A stretch of DNA of 64,000 bases from Mucilaginibacter defluvii (GTDB lineage Bacteria > Bacteroidota > Bacteroidia > Sphingobacteriales > Sphingobacteriaceae). Shown here piece by piece: positions 6,427 through 9,572 of this stretch; the stretch's first letter is position 1, and each line of letters begins with the position of its first letter. The DNA lies in NCBI RefSeq assembly GCF_039543225.1, contig NZ_BAABJI010000004.1, positions 744,001 to 808,000 of the forward strand, in the 5' to 3' direction. The notes under the pieces were generated by a model. The model was given only the letters and a program-made list of their open reading frames with translations. It did no database searches and had not been told where the DNA came from. The translations under genes were made by a program, and so were the position numbers.

Positions 6427-7209
6427 TTACAGCCCCTGTACAAACTCGCGCATAGCCGCTCCCGGGTCTTCTTGCCGCATAAAGTTTTCGCCTATTAAAA
6501 AGCCGCTGAAGCCGGCCTGCTTCAGTTCTTTAATAACTTCGGTATTGCTGATAGCGCTTTCTGAAATTTTTAGGAAATCATCGGGGATGTGCTTGGCTAA
6601 CTGAAATGATGTTTCGACAGATACGGTGAAGTCGGCCAGGTTGCGGTTGTTTACACCAATGGCATCGAGATTAGGATTGATGCTGCGTTCCAGCTCTTCC
6701 AGGTTATGCACCTCGAGCAATACGCTTAGGCCGATGCTTTTGGCCAAAGTAGCAAGCGTATCGATTTCAGCAGGTGTGAGTATGGCGGCTATTAACAAAA
6801 TTACATCGGCGCCTATAGCTTTTGCTTCAATTACCTGGTACTCGTCAATCATAAAATCTTTCCGCAGGATGGGGATGTTGTTGAGCGCACGGGCACGCTT
6901 TACGTCAATTTTGCGCCCCATGAAAAACAGCTTATCGGTTAATACCGATAGTGCCGAAGCACCTGCATCCGCGTAGGCGGTAGTAACCTGCTTAACGGTA
7001 ACCTTATCATTAATAATTCCCTTTGACGGTGATTTACGCTTAAATTCAGCAATAATCCCTGTACGGTCAGGCGCCAGCAAAAATTCGCGGAACGAGTAGG
7101 GTTGTCGCGAAAAAAACTCCGATTCCTCTAACTTCGTGTAAGATACACGGCTTTTAGCGCGCGCTACTTCCTTACGTTTATTGGCAACAATTTTATCAAG
7201 TATGGTCAT
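6427..7209 (-). CDS. trpC: Indole-3-glycerol-phosphate synthase
   Basis: 260 residues, standard for the monofunctional TIM-barrel enzyme. Landmarks are AEFKRKSPSKGIIN (substrate-phosphate and catalytic Lys loop), VLRKDFMIDEYQV (catalytic Lys), GADVILLIAAIL, LLEVHN, and IGVNNRNLADF near the C-terminus. It converts carboxyphenylaminodeoxyribulose phosphate to indole-3-glycerol phosphate in tryptophan synthesis. It is the last gene of the leftward trpE-trpG-trpC group; a REP-like repeat separates it from trpG. trpD, trpF, trpB and trpA are not in this window. Confidence 0.97.
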   Translation of the reverse strand: MTILDKIVANKRKEVARAKSRVSYTKLEESEFFSRQPYSFREFLLAPDRTGIIAEFKRKSPSKGIINDKVTVKQVTTAYADAGASALSVLTDKLFFMGRKIDVKRARALNNIPILRKDFMIDEYQVIEAKAIGADVILLIAAILTPAEIDTLATLAKSIGLSVLLEVHNLEELERSINPNLDAIGVNNRNLADFTVSVETSFQLAKHIPDDFLKISESAISNTEVIKELKQAGFSGFLIGENFMRQEDPGAAMREFVQGL

Positions 7210-7971: not shown

Positions 7972-9381
7972 CTACAGCTCCTCCGCCAGTTCAATCGCCT
8001 TGCGTAAGGCGGCTATCTTGTTATTCACCTCGTTCAGTTCACTCTCCGGTACCGAGCCGGCTACAATACCCGCACCTGCCTGGTAATGCAGTGTGTTATT
8101 CTTGCTCAGGAAAGAACGGATCATGATGGCATGGTTAAAATCGCCGTTAAAGCCTAAATAACCTATAGCGCCGCTGTAAAAACTGCGTTTTATATTCTCG
8201 TTCTCGTCGATAATCTCCATCGCGCGGTATTTTGGCGCGCCACTCAACGTACCTGCGGGGAAGGTATCGGCCACAATTTTAAATGCGGATACGCCCTCAT
8301 GCAACTTGCCGCTCACGTGCGATACCAGGTGGATCAGGTGCGAATAGTATTGCACCTCTTTAAATGCCTTTACTTCCACATCCCCGCAATGGCGGCTCAG
8401 GTCGTTACGGGCCAGGTCAACCAGCATTACATGCTCGGCTGATTCCTTGGGGTCATTTTTAAGGCTTAATGCCAGTTCCGCATCCTTTATATCATCACCA
8501 CTACGCTTAAAAGTTCCGGCTATCGGGTAGATGCTGGCCACACGGTTTTTAATGGTGATCTGTGCCTCCGGAGATGAACCGAAAATGCGGAAGTCGCCAA
8601 AATCAAAATAAAACAAATAAGGTGATGGGTTGATGGAGCGCAGCGCACGGTAAACATTAAATTCGTCGCCGGTAAATTCCTTGGAGAACGCCCTTGACGG
8701 AACGATTTGGAAAACATCACCACGGTAAATATGCTGCTTCATCTTCTCCACAATGGCGATGAATTGCTCATTGCTCAGATTTGATTGCTCGTCGGCCTTG
8801 CTTTGAAAACTATATTCCGGGAAGTTTTTGTTCTTGATCAGGTATTCCACCTTTTCAATACCACCATTGGTAGCGCCGCCCTCTACCTGGTTGTGAAAAA
8901 TGTACAGCTCATTCTTAAAATGATCTATTGCAATGATATAGCGATAAATATTATACTGCATCTCCGGTATCTGGCGTATATCATTCTCTACCTGCTTTAG
9001 CTTAATGGTCTCGAAATGTTCCACTGCCTCGTGCGTAAAATAGCCGAACAGGCCGTTGGAGATGATCTTGCCTAAGTTGCCTTCCGTTTCAAAAACGGAT
9101 AAAAAATTATTGATCTGCTCAATCAGTTCAAACTGCCCGGGTTCAAACACCTGTTTAGTATCATCCGGATACCTTAGTTTAAGCTCGCCTTTATTAAGCG
9201 TAAGCCCGCCAATAGGTTCACAGCACACATAGCTCATGCTGTTTTCACGACTATGATAGTCGGAGCTTTCAAGCAGCAGTGAGTTAGGATAAACATCGCG
9301 CAGGCGCAAGTAAATGCTCACCGGTGTGGTTGTATCGGCAAGCAATTTTTTATGAGTGGTGATAATTTTAAAATTCTTCAT
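7972..9381 (-). CDS. trpE: Anthranilate synthase component I
   Basis: 469 residues, the usual size for this chorismate-binding enzyme. The C-terminal half shows the family signatures FRIFGSSPEAQI, YPIAGTFKRSG, ELALSLKNDPKESAEHVMLVD, TFPAGTLSGAPKYRAMEIIDE and GAGIVAGSVPESE. The N-terminal LLLESSD is the tryptophan feedback-site LLES motif, so allosteric inhibition by Trp is likely. With TrpG it makes anthranilate, the first committed step. It is the first structural gene after the attenuator at 9401-9434, and the trpE ATG is 19 nt beyond the poly-U run. Confidence 0.97.
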   Translation of the reverse strand: MKNFKIITTHKKLLADTTTPVSIYLRLRDVYPNSLLLESSDYHSRENSMSYVCCEPIGGLTLNKGELKLRYPDDTKQVFEPGQFELIEQINNFLSVFETEGNLGKIISNGLFGYFTHEAVEHFETIKLKQVENDIRQIPEMQYNIYRYIIAIDHFKNELYIFHNQVEGGATNGGIEKVEYLIKNKNFPEYSFQSKADEQSNLSNEQFIAIVEKMKQHIYRGDVFQIVPSRAFSKEFTGDEFNVYRALRSINPSPYLFYFDFGDFRIFGSSPEAQITIKNRVASIYPIAGTFKRSGDDIKDAELALSLKNDPKESAEHVMLVDLARNDLSRHCGDVEVKAFKEVQYYSHLIHLVSHVSGKLHEGVSAFKIVADTFPAGTLSGAPKYRAMEIIDENENIKRSFYSGAIGYLGFNGDFNHAIMIRSFLSKNNTLHYQAGAGIVAGSVPESELNEVNNKIAALRKAIELAEEL

Positions 9382-9400: not shown

Positions 9401-9434
9401 AAAAAAACCCGTCGAATGAGTGAATTCGCCGGGT
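9401..9434 (-). terminator. trp attenuator: intrinsic terminator in the trpE leader
   Basis: In the leftward transcript an 11-bp stem (ACCCGGCGAAT / ATTCGACGGGT, one mismatch; arms 9424-9434 and 9407-9417) with a 6-nt loop is followed by seven Us. It sits between the leader peptide and trpE, not behind a gene. The bases CCGGC of the first arm are complementary to GCCGG in codons 18-19 of the leader peptide (9478-9482), a possible antiterminator pairing. Confidence 0.85.
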
Positions 9435-9473
9435 CCTATTAGGTTTACAATTGGTTAGTAGTTGATCAATACA

Positions 9474-9533
9474 CTATCCGGCTGCCAAAATTAAATGGTG
9501 CCACCAGTTGTTTAAAAGTGTGATTTTGATCAT
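9474..9533 (-). CDS. trpL: trp operon leader peptide with tandem Trp codons
   Basis: A 19-codon frame, MIKITLLNNWWHHLILAAG then TAG, with two consecutive UGG codons (9501-9506). It starts 9 nt after a consensus -7 element and ends about 40 nt before the terminator stem. This is the classical layout of ribosome-mediated attenuation: stalling at the Trp codons when charged tRNA-Trp is scarce would leave GCCGG at codons 18-19 free to pair with the terminator's first arm, allowing trpE read-through; a ribosome reaching the stop would cover it. Expression of the peptide is inferred, not shown. Confidence 0.8.
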   Translation of the reverse strand: MIKITLLNNWWHHLILAAG

Positions 9534-9542
9534 AATGTGTCG

Positions 9543-9572
9543 CAAATTTAGAAAGAAATTTGATTTGACCAA
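9543..9572 (-). promoter_or_regulatory. trp operon promoter (Bacteroidota -33/-7)
   Basis: Reading leftward, TTG (9572-9570) is followed after 19 nt by TAAATTTG (9550-9543), a perfect TAnnTTTG -7 element. The transcript would start only a few nucleotides before the leader-peptide ATG. Confidence 0.7.

Follow-up and report, generated by a model that had tools for sequence, protein, structure and literature searches.

A probable ribosome-mediated transcription attenuator with tandem tryptophan codons upstream of trpE in Mucilaginibacter defluvii, and its conservation in Sphingobacteriaceae

Here we report that the leader preceding the trpE-trpG-trpC genes of Mucilaginibacter defluvii very probably acts by ribosome-mediated trp transcription attenuation, which accounts for its sequence far better than the alternatives. 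The leader lies in a stretch of 64,000 nucleotides (hereafter, the window) of a 4.66 Mb genome available in 4 contigs. The minus strand from 9572 to 9401 carries a Bacteroidota promoter, a 19-codon leader ORF and an intrinsic terminator, followed by trpE, trpG and trpC. An earlier note on this DNA had listed a TTG with a 19-nt spacer, the leader, UGG UGG, a terminator and trpE, and every one of these parts was located on the minus strand where the note had placed it. The anatomy of the leader, as well as its conservation and covariation in relatives, was observed directly. The features are as follows:

9543-9572, minus strand: promoter, with -33 TTG (9572-9570), 19-nt spacer and -7 box TAAATTTG (9550-9543), recognised from sequence
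9474-9533, minus strand: leader ORF (trpL), 19 codons and TAG (9476-9474), MIKITLLNNWWHHLILAAG; Trp leader ORF at 121/121 loci
9501-9506, minus strand: tandem UGG UGG, codons 10-11, putative stall site, by conservation; with 9507 also segment 1 (CUGGU)
9478-9482, minus strand: segment 2, GCCGG, putative 5' strand of the antiterminator, in leader codons 18-19; can pair with segment 3
9440-9458, minus strand: conserved element CTAACCAATTGTAAACCTA, between leader stop and terminator, by column identity
9407-9434, minus strand: terminator hairpin, segments 3 and 4, with CCGGC of segment 3 at 9432-9428, by covariation
9401-9407, minus strand: U tract of the terminator, from sequence
7972-9381, minus strand: trpE (anthranilate synthase component I), ATG at 9381, the putatively regulated gene; PF00425, 278.5 bits
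7252-7923, minus strand: trpG, downstream in the operon; ORF, gene name from sequence recognition
6427-7209, minus strand: trpC, downstream in the operon; ORF and gene order, gene name from sequence recognition

TrpE homologues (E <= 1e-60) were present in 234 of 251 genomes of the family. We compared 121 loci, comprising the window, 80 named relatives (the best 80 of 180) and 40 loci from 14 other genera, the latter hand-chosen for spread with genera g5, g8, g9, g15, g17 and g19, which also have TrpE, left out. Among the best 80 of the 180 confirmed stretches, all the TrpE relatives belonged to Mucilaginibacter or to Bacteroidetes MAGs; Mucilaginibacter sp. UR6-1 came closest, with 97%. The order trpE, trpG, trpC was found at 81/81 loci (window and 80 named relatives), and at none of these was trpD found beside the three genes, in stretches usually extending 3 kb either side of trpE.

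A Trp leader ORF precedes the trp biosynthesis operon at 121/121 loci, with clustered Trp codons at 118 of them. It was accompanied by a terminator before trpE in 80/80 named relatives and at 40/40 loci from the 14 other genera, and all 80 named relatives have a WW leader ORF at this place. The Trp runs comprised WW in 88 leaders, WWW in 24 and W-x-W in 6 (118 in total, L133 being read by hand), and the remaining 3 leaders, all from genus g3, have a single Trp codon at the stall position. The run itself varies between WW, WWW, WLW, WHW and WCW with the reading frame kept, and in the 37 genus rows of the alignment (A1) the UGG UGG columns showed an identity of 1.00. The earlier note would have given up its reading if neither WW nor the stem were conserved in relatives; both are conserved, and the terminator covaries.

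An intrinsic terminator stands between the leader and the first gene, its hairpin separated from the leader stop by 39 nt in the window. A GC-rich stem of 11 bp had been proposed here; the hairpin and its U run are indeed present, but not the length, as a G.A mismatch divides the stem into two helices of 5 bp each, ACCCG/CGGGT and CGAAT/ATTCG. Terminators were found by script at 115 of the 121 loci, and the other six (four missed, one wrong hairpin, one over-extended) were read individually and placed by motif pattern. For analysis of pairing, near duplicates were discarded and the remaining 75 leaders aligned, 37 of them out of the 81 genus sequences and 38 out of the 40 from other genera. 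Terminator positions were paired in 97.8% of cells of these 75 leaders, with changes on both sides in 5 of 8 pairs. Covariation of the stem was the check that the earlier note had proposed, and the aligned pairs held 38 double-change cells as against 12.3 in shuffles. The 153-nt leader of the window had a folding z of -2.2, an equal or better fold being obtained in 2 of 200 shuffles.

The alternative pairing of segments 2 and 3, expected of an antiterminator, is supported as well, less evenly. GCCGG at 9482-9478 is complementary to CCGGC at 9432-9428, in agreement with the pairing claimed before. Column identity of segment 2 was 0.97 in the genus rows and 0.78 in other genera, and exact GCCGG was present in 75 of 81 genus leaders, in frame 0 in 48, frame 2 in 20 and frame 1 in 7. 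The genus motif GGCAGCCGG is thereby translated as LAAG, WQPD or GSR, as set by upstream indels. Segment 2 is maintained as RNA while the peptide that it encodes changes, which fits a role as antiterminator strand and does not fit a peptide whose end is functional. In the 75 aligned leaders the antiterminator was paired in 72.7% of cells, compared to at most 48.5% in slid registers. One of its column pairs is C-G in 48 sequences and U-A in 12 (genera g4, g12, g14, g16 and g18), U never standing opposite G there. A C.A mismatch occurs in the antiterminator core of 11/75 aligned sequences (genera g2, g7, g14, g20, g21 and g25), and L145 and L147 of g21 have hardly any aligned antiterminator pairing. 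Exchange of 5' arms between genera did not lower the pairing (mean run 4.58 with own and 4.85 with exchanged arms). Independently of the alignment, the leader-to-arm helix score over all 121 sequences was 14.95; dinucleotide-shuffled sequences gave 11.71 ± 0.21. A pattern search detected a segment-2 motif of the CGG type in 106 of 121 leaders. Its distance downstream of the last Trp codon ranged from 0 to 24 nt with a median of 18 nt, which is also the distance of GCCGG in the window. The pairing of segments 1 and 2, which would sequester segment 2 in RNA free of ribosomes, is part of the minimum free energy fold of the window and is paired in 88% of cells, its covariation not exceeding that of shuffles.

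We modelled folding of a transcript ending before the 3' arm of the terminator, keeping the footprint of the ribosome single-stranded. In the window, the modelled probability of the terminator 5' arm being paired upstream was 0.64 for a ribosome stalled at the Trp codons, fell to 0.10 for one at the stop codon and was 0.23 when the RNA carried no ribosome. This is the expected order; the earlier note had reasoned that a stalled ribosome would free GCCGG and one at the stop codon would cover it. The corresponding modelled means over the 121 sequences were 0.71 (0.47 ± 0.02 for shuffled sequences), 0.43 and 0.39. The stalled state exceeded the stop state in 107/121 and the ribosome-free state in 116/121 of the modelled sequences. 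Predicted arm pairing nevertheless reached 0.3 or more in the stop-codon state of 81/121 sequences and in the ribosome-free state of 68/121, the window not being among them. The high pairing in the stop state may partly reflect re-exposure of segment 2 behind the ribosome (35 of the 106 leaders with the motif); these leaders would depend on 1:2 pairing formed beforehand, a step that lies outside the scope of the model. A cruder version of the model (0.72/0.08/0.39) omitted the RNA behind the ribosome, which flattered the stop state, and was superseded. Thus, by the model, a ribosome on the Trp codons of the window would leave free an antiterminator that excludes the terminator; in the family the support for this arrangement has gaps.

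Of the 121 homologous regions, 114 have TTTG or TTG 17-20 nt ahead of the -7 box, 98 of them at 18 nt. In the window, nine bases separate the -7 box from the ATG at 9533-9531. The start codon follows the box by 4-10 nt in 121/121 family leaders (120 parsed automatically and L133, at 8 nt, by hand), a range found within the limits of a parser that used relaxed box patterns and accepted only starts up to 25 nt from a promoter-like box. The tetramers GGAG, AGGA, GAGG and AAGG were absent from the 18 nt before the start in 120/120 parsed leaders. The sigma-A box of Flavobacterium psychrophilum is TAnnTTTG at -12 to -5, according to PMC9723704. This position together with the 4-10 nt spacing predicts a 5' UTR of 0-6 nt in the family leaders. 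For the window the predicted 5' UTR is about 5 nt, so that its leader would be nearly leaderless, as the earlier note had proposed for an ORF devoid of a Shine-Dalgarno sequence. Other members of the phylum do not all share the near-leaderless spacing: of 26 phylum loci matching the Rfam model Bacteroid-trp (RF01692), the box-to-AUG distance was 16-22 nt in 17 and 4-7 nt in seven, two (L156 and L172) being mis-parsed. In 10 trpD leaders of the family it was 7-17 nt.

From these data we infer the start site, ribosome stalling, termination and the response to tryptophan, and with them the operation of the attenuator in the cell. RNA polymerase would start about 5 nt before the leader AUG (about 9538), and a ribosome would load almost at the 5' end of the RNA without a Shine-Dalgarno sequence. 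When charged tRNA-Trp is scarce, the ribosome would stall at UGG UGG and break the 1:2 pairing between the Trp-codon region and GCCGG; the GCCGG thus freed could pair with the 5' arm of the terminator, and polymerase would continue into trpEGC. With plentiful Trp the ribosome would reach the stop codon beside GCCGG and either cover GCCGG or let it fold back on the Trp codons, whereupon the terminator would form and transcription end near 9401. Conservation of the Trp codons and stem, covariation of the terminator and, less evenly, the 2:3 pairing all support this ribosome-mediated mechanism, which had also been the reading of the earlier note. The helix score, the retention of segment 2 in all three frames, the folding model and the second Trp leader of the same genome (below) also speak for it. 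Counting against it are the unevenness of the antiterminator, the 1:2 helix with no covariation beyond shuffles, the arm pairing that persists in the stop-codon and ribosome-free states of many modelled sequences, the single Trp codon of three g3 leaders and the mismatch in the stem of the window.

The trpD gene is located elsewhere in the same genome and has its own Trp leader and terminator upstream (G000:C2, L153, 2458-2600, minus strand, the same place as L200). Here CATATTTG is followed after seven bases by the leader MKSTILNNNWWWLNE, a hairpin with a U run, and then trpD, trpF and trpB, the gene names being assigned by sequence recognition. Two Trp leaders thus serve a split trp pathway in one genome, one before trpEGC and the other before trpD with trpF and trpB.

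The RF01692 model matched the trpD leader of this genome weakly (34.9 bits, E = 0.056, cut-off 49). It reported nothing at the trpE leader of the window, whether at gathering score, at E <= 10 on 401 bases or in genome-level searches, and at E <= 1 gave no match in 40 family trpE upstream regions. An exception was the trpE leader of genome G038 (L208, WWW), with 31.8 bits and E = 0.14 against the same cut-off of 49. With no match at the locus, hence below the 49-bit membership threshold, RF01692 was rejected as the identity of the window locus. In the family, the model at E <= 1 found matches in 61 of 121 genomes, 6 of which exceeded the cut-off. The best readable family matches (L180, L182-L189) lay before trpD in 9/9 cases, L181 being too short for the script and outside this count, and 43/43 family matches comparable by coordinates were not within 800 nt of a listed trpE. 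Across the phylum, the model matched 26 of 247 genomes, 24 above cut-off; all 26 loci, when read, were Trp leader ORFs (WWW in 25, WW in 1), located before trpE in 25 and trpB in 1, with genes named by sequence recognition. Trp_leader (RF00513), the classical attenuator of the E. coli trp operon, scored 13.6 bits at the window, below its membership cut-off of 41, and at best 25.8 bits among the 40 family trpE regions. A sub-threshold match to Flavo-1 RNA (38.4 bits, cut-off 42) was noted at L129, 369-464, plus strand, near a trpE locus of genus g14.

We also built a covariance model (R1) from the trpE leaders, which at E <= 0.01 found matches in 117 of the 395 genomes searched across the phylum, a tally that includes false matches, because 4 of the 19 loci read outside the family (L211-L229) were not Trp leaders. 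The other 15 were Trp leaders before trpE or trpB; L223, L226, L227 and L228 were rejected on reading. Nine lower-scoring R1 matches in the genome of the window were read, of which L192-L199 resemble ordinary terminators, the ninth, L200, being the trpD leader; ten further matches, at E 1.2-8.1, fell outside these nine. The trpE leaders L214, L217, L219 and L222 (family f23) are very uniform, of the MKKSAHKN..WWW...AVAFL type, and their -10 box, again about 8 nt ahead of the AUG, is of another kind, resembling TATCTTC/TATATTC. In L157 and L213 (family f11) the Trp leader ORF precedes trpB and not trpE.

Leaders of other amino-acid operons were seen in the same genome. Upstream of thrA (L234, 799-938, G000:C4) a Thr/Ile-rich leader MYNSNTIIITIITTGIDIGGK at 799-864 is followed by a strong terminator, and by eye the GGAGGAAAG stretch at the end of this leader can pair with a terminator arm; its AUG is about 28 nt behind a promoter-like box and hence not near-leaderless. 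A His-rich leader ORF MNGYKLHHLHLHHRRHGDIR is present upstream of hisG (L230 reverse complement, about 1227-1289, G000:C2), with no obvious U-tract terminator by eye, and its mechanism may differ. The stretches examined upstream of ilvD and hom contained no comparable leader.

The leader RNA left by termination, or the peptide that it encodes, might act in trans besides attenuating in cis, for example on the unlinked trpD operon, in the manner of rnTrpL and peTrpL of Sinorhizobium meliloti; we consider this improbable. Two g3 regions matched RF02552 RcsR1, which we take to be rnTrpL, below threshold (28.1 and 24.3 bits, cut-off 60). A similar layout, with the start codon at or near the 5' end, is described for S. 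meliloti in PMC7298713, and this resemblance also favours an action in trans. On the other hand, the C-terminal part of the peptide is not conserved, owing to the frame changes, and trpD has a Trp leader of its own in the same genome.

The ribosome model leaves one conserved feature unexplained, namely the element at 9458-9440. Its column identity in the genus rows was 0.93, nearly that of the antiterminator strand (0.97), as compared to 0.63 just upstream and 0.53 in the terminator loop, and a related sequence with an identity of 0.69 is present in other genera. No pairing partner was found for it by consensus pairing prediction on the alignment or by eye, and it is surplus to the classical attenuation model. 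This element could be taken to favour a sensor of Trp or tRNA other than the ribosome (a riboswitch, a T-box or a TRAP-like protein) as controlling trpE, with the ORF being incidental. We regard such a sensor as very improbable, since few columns are as well conserved as the Trp codons, whose run varies with the frame kept, and since Rfam searches of the window at gathering score, and of 401 bases to E = 10 (6 matches), returned no riboswitch or T-box. A further reading, that the hairpin merely terminates the upstream gene for a 148-aa membrane protein (10034-9588) and that the WW ORF is accidental, could appeal to the orientation of that gene, which shares the strand and stops 15 nt short of the promoter. 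It has hardly any likelihood, as a promoter (114/121) and a Trp leader (121/121) with conserved Trp codons are maintained in the interval from the gene to the hairpin, and the unlinked trpD has a second Trp leader upstream.

Ribosome-mediated attenuation therefore remains our reading of the leader. That the trpE leaders of Sphingobacteriaceae form a distinct class of attenuator, with an AUG 0-6 nt from the 5' end and the 19-nt A/C-rich element as a working part, is a tentative and rather doubtful extension of it. Such a class would be built for a phylum without Shine-Dalgarno initiation, in which the ribosome loads on the first nucleotides and keeps pace with the polymerase, and the element before the terminator would be a pause or protein site lacking in known trp attenuators.

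The earlier note implied surprise at such an attenuator in a Bacteroidota genome, which was not warranted, as Trp leaders of this phylum are already in Rfam and in print. Bacteroid-trp (RF01692) is listed among cis-regulatory motifs of Bacteroidetes by Weinberg et al. 2010 (PMC2864571), and PMC6414381 draws a comparison between the E. coli trp leader and this element, which it describes as conserved upstream of the trp operon in F. psychrophilum. In PMC9723704, 'strong clues' are reported for leader peptide attenuation before amino-acid operons of F. psychrophilum; the words tryptophan and trpE have 0 occurrences in its main text. Leaderless trpL is reported from S. meliloti (PMC7298713) and Streptomyces lividans (PMC8079986). 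On account of these reports, the mechanism, the phylum and the leaderless layout each have a precedent, and since the general principle is old the advance is incremental. Among the titles and abstracts listed by searches of the open-licence literature, none dealt with a Sphingobacteriaceae trpE leader or with paired trpE/trpD attenuators. The new details are that RF01692 misses the trpE leader yet weakly finds the trpD leader, the predicted near-leaderless starts, and the 19-nt element. Within one family, what we read as a leader-peptide trp attenuator is conserved upstream of trpE in the 15 genera sampled, where the Rfam model of the phylum scores below threshold or is blind. As the leaders are predicted to be almost leaderless and their hosts do not rely on Shine-Dalgarno sequences, they may serve as a compact system for testing how quickly ribosomes join a nascent transcript in Bacteroidota.

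The window leader shares with RF01692 its phylum, a Trp leader ORF before trp genes and, very probably, the cis-regulatory role listed for that motif, but differs in spacing, the AUG being 4-10 nt behind the box in the window family and 16-22 nt behind TTTG at 17 of 26 RF01692 loci. With RF00513, the classical attenuator as outlined in PMC7298713, it has in common the clustered Trp codons, a probable antiterminator/terminator switch before trpE and the U tract. Unlike RF00513, it has no Shine-Dalgarno sequence, its segment 2 is inside the leader ORF and its AUG is predicted to be nearly at the 5' end. The amino-acid leader attenuators of F. psychrophilum belong to the same phylum and likewise give clues to leader peptide attenuation, Trp not being named in that report. 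In S. meliloti and S. lividans, according to the reports cited above, a Trp leader ORF at the 5' end of the transcript is likewise followed by a terminator and trpE, in other phyla and with other sequences. According to PMC7298713, only trpE(G) of the three trp operons of S. meliloti is attenuated, whereas the genome of the window carries a second Trp leader, before trpD.
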